A DNA stretch of 41,071 bases, from contig JAUZQZ010000044.1 in the NCBI GenBank assembly GCA_030950745.1, positions 1 through 41,071 of the forward strand, written 5' to 3'. This document shows, piece by piece, positions 10,406-20,025 of this stretch. This stretch comes from Mariprofundaceae bacterium. Lineage in GTDB: Bacteria > Pseudomonadota > Zetaproteobacteria > Mariprofundales > Mariprofundaceae. Position 1 is the stretch's first letter. Every line of letters begins with the position of its first letter. The notes beneath the pieces were generated by a model, which saw only the letters and a list, made by a program, of their open reading frames with translations, did not search any database and was not told the origin of the DNA. The position numbers and the translations under genes are program-made.

Positions 10406-11105
10406 GAAGGCGTTATTACAACGCTGGGGAGCATTGCATTTCGAGCTTGATCAGGCGAATGTGCGCTTGCTGGCGGTATCCAAATATGCGTCAGATGAAT
10501 CGGTGCGTTGCCTGGTGGATGCGGGCCAGATGGATTTTGGAGAATCCCGGCCACAGAACTTACGCGACCGGGCGGAACGGTTTCCTGATGTAAACTGGCA
10601 TATGATTGGACCGTTGCAGAAAAACAAGGCCAAATATATCGGCCGGTACGCCTTCATGTGGCATAGTGTGGAAGATATCGAGACGGCACAGGCTGTTGCA
10701 GCGCATGTACGTGGTAGAAGGCTTCCGGTCATGCTGCAAGTCAATGTGGCTGGAACACCGCATCAACATGGCGTGGAAATTGGACAGGCCGGGGCTATTT
10801 TTGAACAACTGATGAACATACCTTCACTGGAAATACGTGGTCTAATGTGCATGGCGCCTAAAGATAGCGATGGACGGGCATGCTTCCGGGCATTGTGCCA
10901 CTTGCGGGATAAGCTTTCTGGTGGAAGCCTGCGCCCGCTCCGATATACGGACGACCTGAAATTATGTATGGGCATGAGTGGCGATTATCGTATTGCCATT
11001 GAGGAAGGCTCGGATATGGTACGATTGGGTTCCACCTTGTTCGGTTTGGGAAATAATGATTTCATCAAGAATGGAATAAAGGAAGATATGGATGCAAAAC
11101 CTTAA
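10398..11105 (+). CDS. yggS: YggS-family PLP homeostasis protein
   Basis: This protein of about 235 residues has the single-domain alanine-racemase-like TIM barrel. The family binds PLP and maintains cofactor and amino-acid homeostasis with no known turnover. AVSKYAS near residue 27 provides the PLP lysine. WHMIGPLQKNKAKY, QVNVAGTPHQHG (normally N..xExxKxG), RGLMCMAP and LCMGMSGDYRIAIEEGSDMVRLGSTLFG are the family's ordered motifs. I favour GTG 10398, preceded by GAAGAGG, over GTG 10386. It overlaps the WecA-like stop and the proC start. The order yggS-proC-yggT-yggU is a widespread proteobacterial arrangement, here transcribed with glycan genes on both sides. Confidence 0.93.
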   Translation: MNRKALLQRWGALHFELDQANVRLLAVSKYASDESVRCLVDAGQMDFGESRPQNLRDRAERFPDVNWHMIGPLQKNKAKYIGRYAFMWHSVEDIETAQAVAAHVRGRRLPVMLQVNVAGTPHQHGVEIGQAGAIFEQLMNIPSLEIRGLMCMAPKDSDGRACFRALCHLRDKLSGGSLRPLRYTDDLKLCMGMSGDYRIAIEEGSDMVRLGSTLFGLGNNDFIKNGIKEDMDAKP

Positions 11106-11961
11106 AATCAGCTTTATTGGTGGTGGCAACATGGCCGAGGCCCTGTTGGCCGGCCTTGTCCGGGCAGGACATGCGCCGGGACAGCTAATGGTGGCTGACG
11201 TCCGGGTTGAGCGTCTGGATGAGCTGAAGCAAGCCTACGGTGTGTGTGTGACGCAAAACAATGCCGAGGCAGCGATGGAAGCAGATGCACTTTTACTTGC
11301 AGTGAAGCCCCAACAAATGGATGTGGTGCTGAAAAGCATTGCAGGGAAAATTGGTAAAGGGACAACGGTAATCAGTATTGCGGCGGGCATCGGTATCAAG
11401 CATTTGCGCGAAGGTTTGGGGGATGAGGTTTGTCTGGTTCGCGTCATGCCCAACACCCCCTGCCTGGTAGGCGCGGGGATGTCCGTATTGTTCTGTGATG
11501 CGGGAAAAGATCATTGTGCCCGTGCCGAATACATTTTGGACTCTTCGGGGAAAACGGCATGGGTGGATGATGAAGATATGTTGCATGCTGTGACGGCAAT
11601 TTCCGGCAGCGGCCCGGCTTACTTTTTTCTACTGGCAGAATTGATGCAGGCTACGGCACATGCGTTGGGACTACCGAAGGAATTAAGCGGTGTGCTGGTG
11701 ACGCAAACAGCTCTGGGCGCAGGCCGGATGCTGGTAGAAAGTGGCAAGACGGCGGAAGAATTGCGGCAGCAGGTTACCAGCTCCGGTGGCACCACCCAGG
11801 CAGCGCTTGAAGCCATGTTCGAAGGCAATATGCCGGATGCGGTGCGTGCTGCGATTACTGCGGCCGCCAAACGCTCGAAGGCGATGGCCCTGCCCCTTAC
11901 ACACAAGCCATGTCACAGAACTCTTGCACACGGGCCAGATCAAGGCGCGGGGCACAGCTAA
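11092..11961 (+). CDS. proC: Pyrroline-5-carboxylate reductase with repeat-derived C-terminal tail
   Basis: ProC catalyses NAD(P)H reduction of pyrroline-5-carboxylate to proline, the last step of proline synthesis. The Rossmann motif ISFIGGGNMAEALLAG is at residues 6-21; VRVMPNTPCLVGAGM and the dimer/substrate segment AISGSGPAYFFLLAELM with SSGGTTQAALE are intact. The native domain appears to end near residue 265 (AAKRSKAM). The last 24 codons, starting ALPLTHK, and the stop codon lie inside the palindromic repeat that begins at 11887, so the original 3' end has been replaced or extended. The core enzyme looks functional. It overlaps yggS by 14 bases. Confidence 0.95.
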   Translation: MQNLKISFIGGGNMAEALLAGLVRAGHAPGQLMVADVRVERLDELKQAYGVCVTQNNAEAAMEADALLLAVKPQQMDVVLKSIAGKIGKGTTVISIAAGIGIKHLREGLGDEVCLVRVMPNTPCLVGAGMSVLFCDAGKDHCARAEYILDSSGKTAWVDDEDMLHAVTAISGSGPAYFFLLAELMQATAHALGLPKELSGVLVTQTALGAGRMLVESGKTAEELRQQVTSSGGTTQAALEAMFEGNMPDAVRAAITAAAKRSKAMALPLTHKPCHRTLAHGPDQGAGHS

Positions 11962-12020
11962 TGGTTGTTCCATTGGCAAGCGCCGCAACGCAGGTATGGC
12001 CCGTGTGTAAGGGGCAGGGC
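11887..12020. repeat. Structured palindromic element A (between proC and yggT)
   Basis: The outer arms GCCCTGCCCCTTACACAC (11887-11904) and its exact reverse complement (12003-12020) give a perfect 18-bp stem. A second pairing, CACACGGGCCA (11927-11937) with TGGCCCGTGTG (11997-12007), extends the right arm inward, so about 22 bases of the left side bulge out. Inside is a CAAGGCGC strand opposite GCGCCGCAACGCAGG, and at the tip a small hairpin AATGG/CCATT (11960-11974). The left arm encodes the last residues of ProC, and the right arm ends seven bases before yggT, so its AAGGGG may serve as that gene's ribosome-binding site. It shares its core with the units at 14210-14410. Confidence 0.85.
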
Positions 12021-12027
12021 TAGCCTG

Positions 12028-12327
12028 ATGTTTATGCTGGGTTATTTCCTACAGGCTTTGGCAGGGGTGGTGCATGTGTTGTTGATGGCGATTATGCTGG
12101 TGGTGATTGCGCGTGCTGTCCTGTCCTGGGTGTCACCCGATCCGTATAATCCCATTGTGCGTGTGATTATCCAGCTTTCTGAACCGCTGTTATATCCCAT
12201 CCGCAGAAGGTTACCGATTTTAGGAGGGCTGGACCTTTCACCGATGTTGTTAATTCTGGCGGCGGTCTTTCTGGATAATTTTCTGGTGCCAAGTTTGCAA
12301 CGCATTGCGCTGAACATGCTTTCGTGA
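12028..12327 (+). CDS. yggT: YggT-family membrane protein
   Basis: This 99-residue integral membrane protein has one YggT repeat of two hydrophobic segments. It begins MFMLGYFLQALAGVVHVLL and carries the family motif VLSWVSPDPYNPIVRVIIQLSEPLLYPIRRRLP, followed by a second membrane segment, LSPMLLILAAVFLDNFLV. YggT proteins are linked genetically to osmotic stress and cell-division or shape functions; the biochemical role is unresolved. The frame is open upstream to 11965 through the repeat, but ATG 12028 gives the conserved N-terminus. The stop overlaps the next gene's GTG start (GTGA). Confidence 0.93.
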   Translation: MFMLGYFLQALAGVVHVLLMAIMLVVIARAVLSWVSPDPYNPIVRVIIQLSEPLLYPIRRRLPILGGLDLSPMLLILAAVFLDNFLVPSLQRIALNMLS

Positions 12328-12635
12328 GCGAAGTTGATACGGCCATTACGGTTGGGAAGGGGGGTGTCTATGTTAATGTACATGCTCAACCGGGTGTACG
12401 GAAACCCCGGCTACGCGGTATGCATGGCGATGCAATAAAAATTGCCGTACGCGAAGCTGCACAGGATGGGAAGGCTAATGCCGCTATTATCAATTTCATG
12501 GCCGAATTACTGGGTTGCACAAGACAGAATGTAGAGGTGGCGTCCGGCCATACATCACGGCAAAAACGACTGTTCGTCAGTGGCGATATACGGCCTATTA
12601 TTAACCGTTTGCACGAAATACTTAAAGATGCTTGA
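12324..12635 (+). CDS. yggU: DUF167 (YggU-family) protein
   Basis: This 103-residue cytoplasmic protein of unknown function belongs to the YggU/DUF167 family. Diagnostic segments are VYVNVHAQPGVRKPRLRGMHGDAIKIAVREAAQDGKANAAIINFMAELL (PG-x-K-x-x-I...ApPvdGkAN in the consensus) and VEVASGHTSRQKRLFVSG. The start GTG at 12324 overlaps the yggT stop, and the stop lies eight bases inside the next gene. The gene almost always accompanies yggS-proC-yggT, which supports the assignment; what the protein does is not known. Confidence 0.93.
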   Translation: MSEVDTAITVGKGGVYVNVHAQPGVRKPRLRGMHGDAIKIAVREAAQDGKANAAIINFMAELLGCTRQNVEVASGHTSRQKRLFVSGDIRPIINRLHEILKDA

Positions 12636-14274
12636 ACGTATGGCTGCGCGGCCAGTAACGTGGCTGTTGCTGCTTTGCGCCGTAAACTTTGCCTTTATGC
12701 TGGGCGGCCATTCTCTGTGGGACGTCGATGAGCCCAACAATGCCGTGTGCGCCCGTGAAATGCTTGCGGCGGGCAATTGGTGGGTGCCTGTATTCAATGG
12801 CGACCTGCGCTTTGATAAACCAATTTTACTCTACTGGCTAATGATGCCGTTGTTTCATGTGTTTGGCGTGCATGAGTGGACGGCACGCCTGCCATCGGTG
12901 ATGGCGATTAGTTCGTTGGTGCTGGTGGTCTTTTATTTTGGGCGGCGCATGGCAGATGTGCGCACGGGTCTGATTGCTGCACTGTTGCTGGTTAGCAGTC
13001 TGCATATCGTGGTGATTGCCCGGGCGGCCACGCCTGATCCGTTACTAATGCTGTGCATTGGTTTTGCGCTATCCGCTTTTCTCTGTTTTTACCTTGAGGA
13101 GATGGAAAATTATCGCCTGTTGATAGCTGCTTATGTAATGCTGGGGTTCGGCGTACTGGCCAAGGGGCCCGTAGCTATTCTGCTTCCGGCGCTGGTGATG
13201 CTGGTATTTCTTCTGATGATGGGACAGAGGGAAAACATCAGGAAGTTCCGGCCCGTTATCGGTTTATGTGTCATTCTGGCCGTGGCTCTGCCATGGTATA
13301 TCACGGTGGGTGTGCTGACCGACGGGGAGTGGCTGAAAGGGTTTTTGTTGCATCACAATATTGACCGGTTTACCGGGACCTTACAGGGGCACCGCGGGTT
13401 CCCCGGGTTTTACATCCTTACCTTCCTGGGTGGATGGTTTCCGTGGAGCGGTTTATTGGCGGCGGCGCTGGGTTTGGGTGCGTGGAAGCGCGCTACGTTG
13501 CAAAAGCAACCTGTTCGTCTGTTCCTGCTGTGCTGGATAGGGGTGTTTTTTATCTTTTTCACACTGGCCAGCACACGCCTTCCCAATTATATGTTACCTG
13601 CCTTTCCAGCGGCGGCTCTGATGATGGCTTTCTGGATTCGGGGCCATGAAGAACAGGCTGGCAACTGGCTGACTCGAGGGGCGCTGGCCTTATCTTTTTC
13701 TGTGATTGTGGGCGCAGGCATTGCATTGCAGATACAATGGCCCGGTGAATGGGTATATGCGCTGTGTTTTCTGCCACTTTTTATTGCCACATTTGCAAGC
13801 ATACGTCTGAAGCTGGAACGATCCATACCCATGATTGCTGCGGGGATGGCAGCCAGTGTCATTTTTCTCGCCGGATGGGGCCTGCCGGTTTTTGAGCATC
13901 ATAAAGTTACGCCTGAACTTGCCGCCGCCGCCAACCGTGCGGGATTTGACGGGAAGTCACTCGCGACCTTCCGCTATTTTCAACCATCATTGTTGTATTA
14001 TCATGGCGGCCGCCTGCCGATGCTGGCGAATATGCATGATGTGTCGGTATGGCTGATGCAGGGAAAAGCGGTGGTATTACCACAGGGAGCGTTGGCCGAG
14101 TTCCCTTCTGCTATCCTTCCTTATCTGGTTATTCATAAACGAAGTTTTGGTATGGTTGCCAGAAAATGGTTGTTGCTAGTGTCCTATCCCGTAAAAGAGC
14201 ATACCATCAGCGAGTCTGGACGGGATGTACGGCAAGGCGCGCGAATGCGGGACTGGCAGAGCCAGTTCAAATGA
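12628..14274 (+). CDS. ArnT/PMT-like GT-C glycosyltransferase (GT83-type)
   Basis: This polytopic inner-membrane transferase of about 548 residues moves a sugar from a polyprenyl-phosphate donor to a periplasmic acceptor such as lipid A, core or protein. After the first membrane segment comes the catalytic loop SLWDVDEPNNAVCAREML (acidic Asp34/Glu35 region), then FNGDLRFDKPILLYWL, both characteristic of the ArnT group. About ten further hydrophobic segments follow, then a small soluble C-terminal region. ATG 12628 gives the conserved start and overlaps yggU by eight bases. The last 32 codons (VLxxSYPVKEHTIS to the stop) lie inside the large repeat starting at 14178, so the tail is probably not native. 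The GT2 gene downstream could make the donor lipid. Confidence 0.85.
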   Translation: MLERMAARPVTWLLLLCAVNFAFMLGGHSLWDVDEPNNAVCAREMLAAGNWWVPVFNGDLRFDKPILLYWLMMPLFHVFGVHEWTARLPSVMAISSLVLVVFYFGRRMADVRTGLIAALLLVSSLHIVVIARAATPDPLLMLCIGFALSAFLCFYLEEMENYRLLIAAYVMLGFGVLAKGPVAILLPALVMLVFLLMMGQRENIRKFRPVIGLCVILAVALPWYITVGVLTDGEWLKGFLLHHNIDRFTGTLQGHRGFPGFYILTFLGGWFPWSGLLAAALGLGAWKRATLQKQPVRLFLLCWIGVFFIFFTLASTRLPNYMLPAFPAAALMMAFWIRGHEEQAGNWLTRGALALSFSVIVGAGIALQIQWPGEWVYALCFLPLFIATFASIRLKLERSIPMIAAGMAASVIFLAGWGLPVFEHHKVTPELAAAANRAGFDGKSLATFRYFQPSLLYYHGGRLPMLANMHDVSVWLMQGKAVVLPQGALAEFPSAILPYLVIHKRSFGMVARKWLLLVSYPVKEHTISESGRDVRQGARMRDWQSQFK

Positions 14275-14307
14275 GCGCAACGCAGGCGTACGCCCGTCCA
14301 GACTCGC
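14210..14307 (+). repeat. Element B, unit 1
   Basis: The stem GCGAGTCTGGACGGG (14210-14224) pairs exactly with 14293-14307. GTACG/CGTAC extends it inward after a small bulge. The conserved internal loop is GCAAG on the left and AACGCAGG on the right, then GCGC pairs with GCGC, and the tip carries a hairpin ACTGGC-aga-GCCAGT (14252-14266). The arrangement matches element A, although the stems differ in sequence. Confidence 0.8.
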
Positions 14308-14314
14308 CCGAAGG

Positions 14315-14410
14315 GAGCCACTCCAAGGAGTCAATGCGGCGTTGCGCCCCTTGCCAAGGGCGCACCATTGCCTGCGGGACGCGCCTTGCCTTGACTCCTT
14401 GGAGTGGCTC
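14315..14410 (-). repeat. Element B, unit 2 (inverted relative to unit 1)
   Basis: The 20-bp arms at 14315-14334 and 14391-14410 are perfect reverse complements (GAGCCACTCC... and its complement). Read on the minus strand, the unit has GGCAAG-GCGC on the left, GCGC-AACGCCGCA on the right, and a central GCGCCC...GGGGCGC hairpin. This is the same core as unit 1 and element A with unrelated stem sequences. Confidence 0.8.
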
Positions 14411-14472
14411 TGATGGCGTGCTCTTTTACGGGACAGGACACTCGTCAGTTTGAGACCTGTGGAGGGGTTAAC

Positions 14473-15441
14473 ATGGCCCGGGAATTAATTTCTATTGTCG
14501 TACCGGTGTACCGGGAGGAGGAAAACATCCCTCTTCTGGTTGAGGAGATCGCTCAGGCATTGGGTGATACTCCCTATGAACTGATCATAGTTGATGACGG
14601 ATCCGATGATGATACGTTTAACCGAATCGAGCAGGCATGCGCAAAGGATAACCATATTACGGGAATTCAGTTGCGCCGGAATTTCGGCCAGACCGCAGCC
14701 ATGAGTGCCGGATTTGAAGCTGTGCATGGTGAGTATATTGTGTACATGGACGGTGATTTACAGACGGACCCGAAAGATATTTCAAAACTTCTTGAACGGC
14801 TAAAGCAGGACAATCTGGATATGGTCAATGGCTGGCGTAAGGATCGCAAGGATGCAGGTCTTACGCGCAACCTGCCGTCGCGCGTTGCCAACGCTCTGAT
14901 ACGCCGATCCACCAAGGTCCGCATGCATGATTACGGTTGCCCGATGAAACTGATGCGGGTTGAAGTTGCCAGGAATCTCCATCTTTATGGGGAACAGCAT
15001 CGTTTTCTGCCGGCGATGGCGGCATTGTATGGTGCACACATTGGCGAGGAGGTGGTGACACACAGGCCAAGGCGCTTTGGTGAAAGCAAGTATGGGTTGG
15101 GGCGTACCATTCGCGTGCTGGTGGACCTGTTGCTGGTATTGTTCTTCCAACGATTTACTGACCGGCCATTGCAGCTCTTTGGCCCGGCAGGACTTCTGAG
15201 CTTTGTGGCGGGTGTTGGCATAGATCTGTGGCTGAGCATGAGCAAGCTGGTTTTCGGAACGGACCTGGCAGGTCGGCCTATGTTGCAGCTGGGTTCACTA
15301 CTGATTATCAGTGGTTTATTGCTGTTTGGCATTGGCCTGATTCTGGAAATGCAGGCACGCACCTATTATGAATCCACAGGACGGCGGCATTATGCAATTC
15401 GGAAAAAGGTGGGTGCACAAAAGCAAGAAGACGTTTCCTGA
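14473..15441 (+). CDS. GT2 polyprenyl-phosphate glycosyltransferase (DPM/GtrB/ArnC-like)
   Basis: This 322-residue enzyme probably transfers a sugar from a nucleotide donor to undecaprenyl phosphate. The start at 14473 is preceded by a good Shine-Dalgarno (GGAGGGG near 14460) and lies just after the repeat element; the upstream in-frame extension runs through the repeat. The N-terminal GT-A domain has SIVVPVYREEENI, VDDGSDDDT (residues 40-48), the DxD-like YMDGDLQTDP near residue 93, and the GEQHRFLPAMAALYG segment typical of GtrB. Two C-terminal membrane segments lie near residues 230-255 and 270-295. With the upstream ArnT-like transferase and downstream UPF0104 protein it resembles a make-flip-transfer set for glycan decoration (inference). 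Confidence 0.92.
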   Translation: MARELISIVVPVYREEENIPLLVEEIAQALGDTPYELIIVDDGSDDDTFNRIEQACAKDNHITGIQLRRNFGQTAAMSAGFEAVHGEYIVYMDGDLQTDPKDISKLLERLKQDNLDMVNGWRKDRKDAGLTRNLPSRVANALIRRSTKVRMHDYGCPMKLMRVEVARNLHLYGEQHRFLPAMAALYGAHIGEEVVTHRPRRFGESKYGLGRTIRVLVDLLLVLFFQRFTDRPLQLFGPAGLLSFVAGVGIDLWLSMSKLVFGTDLAGRPMLQLGSLLIISGLLLFGIGLILEMQARTYYESTGRRHYAIRKKVGAQKQEDVS

Positions 15442-19949: not shown

Positions 19950-20025
19950 TCCCCGGTAGCTCAGTTGGTAGAGCGGGTGACTGTTAATCACCTTGTCGCT
20001 GGTTCGAGTCCGGCCCGGGGAGCCA
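19950..20025 (+). tRNA. tRNA-Asn (anticodon GTT)
   Basis: This 76-base cloverleaf has the CCA encoded. The acceptor strand TCCCCGG pairs with CCGGGGA before discriminator G and CCA. The D-loop has AGCTCAGTTGGTAGAGC, the anticodon arm is GGTGA-CT-GTT-AA-TCACC, and the T-arm includes GGTTCGAGTCC. The anticodon GTT reads AAC and AAU, so it is asparagine. It stands alone between convergent-side genes with its own promoter and terminator. Confidence 0.97.

Follow-up and report, generated by a model that had tools for sequence, protein, structure and literature searches.

What are the folded repeats that lie between genes of a Mariprofundaceae bacterium, and what preserves their shape while their sequence changes? 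The stretch of DNA considered here (the window) comprises 41,071 nucleotides. Within it, the core pattern CAAGGC-N38-42-AACG[CA]NG occurs exactly three times, at 11941-11993 and 14233-14285 on the plus strand and at 14337-14388 on the minus strand; the expectation is 0.055 per first-order shuffled window. Each of the three single units folds far better than its shuffles (z -7.2 to -8.8). An initial annotation had placed three structured units at these sites, and there they are. It had not recognised, however, the terminal inverted repeats with their transposon ends, nor the CTAG/TA target. The features concerned are the following.

11092-11961, plus strand: proC, with Pfam P5CR_dimer at residues 161-265; the frame terminates within element A, and its last ~24 codons are element-coded.
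11887-12020, plus strand: element A, a one-arm derivative of a second (sister) subfamily, end type GCCCTGCCCYTTACACACAAG.
11917-12017, plus strand: arm of A (the initial annotation's element A), loop strands CAAGGC at 11941-11946 and AACGCAG at 11987-11993.
12580-14274, plus strand: PMT_2-type glycosyltransferase gene, the reading frame of which extends ~32 codons into B.
14178-14442, plus strand: complete element B, in the order terminal repeat, arm 1, short linker hairpin, inverted arm 2, terminal repeat.
14178-14210, plus strand: left terminal inverted repeat of B; begins within CTAG (14176-14179) and has CAG at its inner end, before arm 1.
14210-14307, plus strand: arm 1 of B (formerly unit B1), loop strands CAAGGC at 14233-14238 and AACGCAG at 14279-14285.
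14307-14315, no strand assigned: linker hairpin of B, CCCGAAGGG (CCCTTCGGG on the opposite strand), which separates the arms.
14315-14410, minus strand: inverted arm 2 of B (formerly unit B2), loop strands CAAGGC at 14383-14388 and AACGCCG at 14337-14343.
14404-15441, plus strand: glycosyltransferase family 2 ORF downstream of B; the domain starts at residue 30 of the listed ORF.
14410-14442, minus strand: right terminal inverted repeat of B; its flank is TCG, where TAG was expected.

The units B1 and B2, initially taken for separate copies, are two inverted arms of one 265-bp element. Both are enclosed by an outer inverted repeat of 33 nt (14178-14210 / 14410-14442, 91% complementary). On either strand the 265 nt fold into a cloverleaf made up of the outer helix, the two arms and, between them, the short linker hairpin, with z -15.1 and -13.8 against shuffles for the two strands. 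A covariance model built on an alignment of 22 arms (R1) matches arm 1 at 14209-14308 on the plus strand (82.0 bits, E 1.7e-17) and arm 2 at 14313-14412 on the minus strand (97.9 bits, E 1.1e-21). The linker hairpin is also present in composites from many species. The own genome contains six full-length copies including B itself, the other five being 81-85% identical over the 265 bp. B is located between the two glycosyltransferase genes; the true start of the second one is likely the ATG at 14473, past the element.

Element A is located between proC and yggT. It has an outer inverted repeat of its own (25 nt, 11887-11911 / 11996-12020, 92% complementary), and its arm is recognised by R1 with 88.3 bits (E 3.7e-19). 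Its relatives L002-L004 contain both arms and the linker, and L003, for instance, is a complete form with a second arm and the same linker. Element A is a derivative that retained one arm. A side aspect is the C-terminal extension of genes by MITEs, as seen in proC (~24 residues from A) and the PMT_2 gene (~32 codons into B). The Rickettsia palindromic elements are also palindromic and can likewise become part of a reading frame by extension or fusion, the situation of A and proC. They insert in frame within genes (PMC10969869), whereas the present composites lie between genes and have transposon-type ends.

The first alignment of 22 arms comprised four main subfamilies and one further type. 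All follow one plan: an outer helix of 22 pairs, an internal loop CAAGGC / AACGC(A/C)G, a 7-bp helix, a second loop NCAG / CAA, another 7-bp helix and an apical loop. Two-sided changes were seen at 30 of the 36 pairs, and covariation amounted to 0.531, compared to 0.208 in shuffled and 0.06-0.17 in slid columns. A diverse set of 48 arms from many genera shows two-sided changes at 36/36 stem pairs, with 89.6% of the cells pairing and a covariation of 0.889 versus 0.233 shuffled (sd 0.011) and at most 0.181 slid. The loops, by contrast to the stems, hardly change. In the 48 arms, the left loop columns read C 48/48, A 39, A 47, G 47, G 46 and C 46, the right ones A 47, A 48, C 47, G 44, C 41, A or C, and G 48/48. 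Arm length is constant across genera. Conserved loops with compensating stems point to selection acting on a folded molecule, either RNA or single-stranded DNA. The initial annotation had argued in this sense from three units, and the covariation withstands 500 shuffles, the slid columns and the extension to 48 units. The GCGC/GCGC clamp also described there is in part correct: a helix is present, yet GCGC is but one reading of the first 7-bp helix (alignment columns 31-37 with 65-71), the sequence of which differs in every subfamily (GCGGTGC/GCGCCGC, GTGCAAG/CGAGTGC, GCGTCCC/GGGGCGC, GCGCTTT/AAAGCGC). Covariation had further been set against simple copying of a mobile repeat. The covariation is real, but the two are not alternatives: within a subfamily the stems are copied, with 81-85% identity of full copies over 265 bp, so the repeat moves. 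Between subfamilies and species, the base pairs of the stems have been replaced one by one.

The number of copies had been underestimated. In the own Zetaproteobacterial genome R1 yields 43 arm matches at E<=0.1, i.e., dozens instead of three, mostly as +/- pairs separated by a few bases; a few of the lowest-scoring matches are opposite-strand readings of an arm, and E-values from home-made covariance models are rough. R1 further matches 25 of 61 genomes, distant families of the phylum included, again in +/- pairs. A broader model, R2, finds the arms at E<=1e-5 in 120 of 399 sampled genomes (~30%) and in 57 of the 212 sampled genera of the phylum. This search of the genome and its relatives, as initially proposed, thus revealed covarying pairs, dozens of copies with different stems and a core that recurs outside the three units, in the own genome and in other genera; near-identical stems are seen within subfamilies only, not between them. 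The pattern of core plus linker is found in at least 107 named stretches, from hosts such as Ca. Thiodiazotropha, Thiohalomonas, Thioalkalivibrio, Thiococcus, Photobacterium, Paraglaciecola, Halothiobacillus, Sulfurimicrobium and Zetaproteobacteria. Plasmids of Azotobacter, Halomonas and Pseudomonas also carry family-related composites, and Pseudoalteromonas and Vibrio yield partial matches. In other phyla there are single, weaker MAG matches. The one in Sulfurimonas is upheld by the model (E 6e-10) and that in Desulfoluna marginally; the pattern matches in Nitrospirae and Phycisphaeraceae MAGs are not. The composite-centre pattern was not found in viral contigs, nor one IS5-type composite in E. 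coli genomes.

Derivatives of various kinds were also seen. A third subfamily of the own genome (L021 186-434, L022 266-514, L047-L049) has AT-rich ends CTAATACCTTCATAAATAAA and different arms. Internal-deletion derivatives with terminal repeats AGGGCTCAATCCCATAAATTCGTTACTCCTCAG have lost their arms mostly or wholly (L023 389-483, L030 305-500). The genome of Ca. Thiodiazotropha Th2 (G061) displays 148 matches to the IS5-type end TAGGGCCTGTTAACACTA when as many as 3 mismatches are allowed, and the end pairs are spaced about 250, 145, 80 and 40 bp. This pattern reads as a recent burst with graded internal deletions.

A complete element measures ~250-265 bp: terminal inverted repeats flank two facing arms of ~100 nt, with the 9-nt linker hairpin between them. 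Composites start at CTAG or a sequence close to it; their terminal helix mostly has 30-38 bp, and CAG precedes arm 1 in most. Elements can abut end to end with a common CTAG (e.g., L159). An empty site supports mobility. The joined flanks of an element in G033 align gap-free to the related species G018 (94% over 280 bases); at the G033/G018 junction, TTTTTAGTAAGCTGG faces TTTTTACTCAGCTGG, with no extra bases and two substitutions at the site. The element is absent also from other species of its genus. The pair of filled and empty site is consistent with insertion and TA duplication. At an element of G033 (L269, G033:C1:411942-412211) the repeat adjoins what by eye is a putative tRNA-Leu gene, downstream of the likely terminator of the preceding gene.

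The ends point to candidate transposases. The B end CTAGTGTCCTGTCCCGTAAA (CTAG plus the outer 16 bp) agrees in 20/20 positions with the end of an IS630-family element from another species, on a Cupriavidus plasmid; the two ends of this IS element carry the 14-bp repeat, and it encodes a DDE_3 transposase. The end of the GGGCCTGTTAACAC subfamily (CTAGGGCCTGTTAACACTA) bounds ~0.8-kb elements annotated as IS5 family transposase, again outside the host genome, in plasmids of Enterobacter, Pseudomonas, Polaromonas and Variovorax. The IS match is limited to the outer ~15-20 bp; the inner part of the terminal helix is likewise complementary. Ends are shared with elements of two unrelated transposase families, IS630 and IS5. 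Additional end types, e.g., GGGAAGGTACGAATAAGTC, GAGCTCATTTCATAAAT and AATACCAATCC, were seen. What distinguishes the family is that conservation resides in the structured core, whereas the transposon ends change from one unrelated IS family to another.

A resident helper was searched for. When the own genome was scanned with the TIR for an autonomous element with matching ends, only solo ends at gene borders were found, and scans of a Thiodiazotropha genome yielded ~250-bp composite-sized pairs and shorter derivatives, no IS-sized pair. DDE_3 (IS630) has one sub-threshold match in the own genome (G000) and none in the copy-rich G046. DDE_Tnp_1 was rejected as universal helper, being absent from several element-rich genomes including G046. 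The REP-type Y1 transposase (RAYT), which the initial annotation had considered, is indeed present in G000 and others, where it might play a part, but is not required: it has no match in the arm-rich G011 nor in G052, and was rejected as universal helper as well. The missing helpers may have been lost, may lie in assembly gaps or may belong to another family. Solo B-type terminal repeats at or adjoining gene starts and stops (L207, L214; C129:2302, C140:25312) are perhaps remnants of excised or recombined elements; in L214 the TAG of CTAG serves as stop codon.

Which strand folds can be read from the wobble pairs. With the arms read CAAGGC-first, G.T outnumbers A.C by 81 to 31 in the first set and by 138 to 30 in the 48 diverse arms, while slid controls are near parity; such counts can be tilted if G.U, but not A.C, is tolerated during detection and alignment, and the copies are not independent. 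With the register picked by Watson-Crick pairs only, the ratio is 91:21 for arm 1 and 76:21 for arm 2, i.e., about four to one each, and on opposite strands. The terminal helix, with 92:63, has only weak polarity. Double-stranded recognition or template-switch repair would treat G.T and A.C alike. The bias in the arms suggests that selection acts on each arm in its folded, single-stranded form, and on the terminal helix mainly as DNA. The folded single strand under selection is probably RNA. Since the arms point inwards, transcription entering from either flank would first encounter an arm in its selected orientation.

Taken together, we consider it fairly probable that A and B, members of a large family of non-autonomous MITEs, are moved in trans by IS-family DDE transposases, and that their arms are kept for a function as folded single strands, most likely as RNA. 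The IS630- or IS5-family DDE transposases would act in trans on the outer 15-20 bp of the ends. The arms would not be needed for movement, but would be maintained for what they do as folded single strands, most likely in the RNA of read-through transcription. Their inward-facing arrangement, by which the sense arm is met first from either side, would render this function independent of the direction of insertion.

The single strand could, of course, be DNA. The arms would then act as hairpins that a transposase or host factor recognises by their internal loops while the element transposes, comparable to attC sites or to the hairpins of IS200/IS605 and REP. The strand-specific wobble of each arm and the conserved loops fit the recognition of one folded strand, and REPINs are likewise inverted pairs with compensatory spacer changes (PMC3116915). 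The termini and the TA/CTAG target, however, are typical of double-strand DDE elements, a Y1 transposase is absent from the arm-rich G011 and from G052, and the same arms between unrelated IS ends make one dedicated transposase unlikely. We regard this reading as rather unlikely. As to attC, the integron site has R''/R' boxes RYYYAAC / GTTRRRY and extrahelical bases; the resemblance, noted by eye only, was dropped as unsupported, and the core GCGTTGCGC does not fit GTTRRRY. Resemblances to the K-turn and 4.5S RNA, also weighed by eye, were dropped as unsupported.

Could the arms be functionless? Quasi-palindrome correction is an established mutational process that yields covariation without selection. 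The elements are strong palindromes, and the interiors of MITEs could be kept perfect by inter-arm template switching in replication. Such switching should, however, erase G.T and A.C mismatches alike. Nor would it explain why, across genera, the asymmetric loops CAAGGC / AACGC(A/C)G hardly vary and arm length stays constant. Already strained by these facts, the explanation is improbable.

The gene context bears on the possible function of the arms. None of the 42 composites with two scorable neighbours lies inside an ORF; 31 sit between co-directional, 7 between divergent and 4 between convergent genes. Compared to the local baseline, gene orientation does not differ significantly (p = 0.12 tandem, 0.06 convergent). 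Several elements, such as L010, L011, L014, L067, L071, L145 and L172, fit between adjacent stop and start with less than ~10 nt to spare per side, so they are probably transcribed within operons. This argues against strong terminators and would allow a role in making insertion into operons harmless. That the arms are transcription terminators or insulators which shield the element or its neighbours from read-through is very improbable: the hairpins are very stable, with the sense arm first from either side, and terminator-like MITEs (SPRITE) are mentioned in a review (PMC10969869), but there is no U tract after the arms, no enrichment between convergent genes (4/42 versus 51/223 in the baseline), and the frequent placement between tightly spaced co-directional genes is one where termination would be polar.

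To return to folded RNA arms in MITEs, their purpose might be to render an untranslated insertion within an operon harmless, a tentative suggestion that we hold weakly. Masking from Rho, an antitermination-like contact with RNA polymerase, or protection or processing of the mRNA could achieve this. A conceivable working analogue, for which no homology is claimed, is the put RNA of phage HK022: short stem-loops with unpaired bases that act on RNA polymerase without a dedicated protein and suppress intrinsic and Rho-dependent termination (PMC9378689). Unlike the arms, put is phage-encoded and consists of two stem-loops in ~70 nt. The tolerance of operons may also only reflect where insertions survive.

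How do the elements relate to known ones? Prokaryotic MITEs are <500 bp, have no coding capacity, and show terminal inverted repeats, target duplication and IS-like ends (PMC10969869). Our elements are <500 bp, non-coding, repeated and bounded by terminal inverted repeats. Ends, target and empty site identify them as MITEs, of a new kind with a portable structured core. In size, lack of coding capacity, repeats and IS-type ends they resemble MITEPsy1, Correia/NEMIS and QMITE1/2 (PMC10969869); MITEPsy1 is IS5-like and targets CTAG or YTAA (PMC3189936). As far as described in that review, such MITEs are restricted to a species or genus and depend on one IS each (PMC10969869), whereas here one two-arm core occurs in 57/212 genera between the ends of at least two unrelated transposase families. 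Correia/NEMIS is an IS630-type MITE of 100-155 bp with TA duplication; B has an IS630-type end, but judged by that description the present family differs in length, in its two-arm interior and in having IS5-type members.

REPINs are inverted hairpin pairs with compensatory spacer changes (PMC3116915) and, together with RAYTs, share with our elements the two inverted units, the compensatory changes and the dispersal mainly outside genes. Their units, however, are 16-40 nt long as compared to ~100-nt arms, and our family has long terminal inverted repeats, a TA/CTAG target and no need for the Y1 transposase. Identity with REPINs or BIMEs, which consist of REP units of 20-40 nt and lack long terminal inverted repeats, was rejected in view of arms of ~100 nt, a terminal helix of mostly 30-38 bp and the absence of Y1 in G011 and G052. 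None of the 4227 covariance models of Rfam matches an element at gathering threshold or E<=1, in line with the initial annotation, which had recognised no named family; a tRNA gene at 19950-20022 is the sole Rfam match in the window. In the open-licence papers on structured MITEs no description was found, although a subscription paper or an ISfinder entry could exist. The MITE papers on Thiomargarita and Coxiella deal with other elements, as far as their accessible text allows to judge.

A bolder proposal makes the structured RNA module, and not a transposase, the inherited core. It would have been taken repeatedly between unrelated IS ends (IS630, IS5 and apparently others) and have spread through the Pseudomonadota and beyond, its two inward copies providing orientation-independent antitermination or Rho shielding that leaves operon insertions harmless. 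As a whole this is speculative and unlikely.

The findings suggest a widespread structured passenger with ends borrowed from unrelated transposons, undescribed in the open-licence literature searched. Some 30% of the sampled genomes of the phylum (120/399) carry this apparently unnamed repeat, with loops as conserved as those of known functional RNAs. The family is a candidate for Rfam and for IS annotation. If the arms are RNA, they would represent a large, testable class of mobile regulatory RNA within operons, with broad natural variants for the search of a loop ligand. If they are sites in single-stranded DNA, they would reveal that unrelated DDE elements have a step of their movement in common. 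In both cases the family is relevant to how tiny elements change transposase and to why insertions into operons survive.
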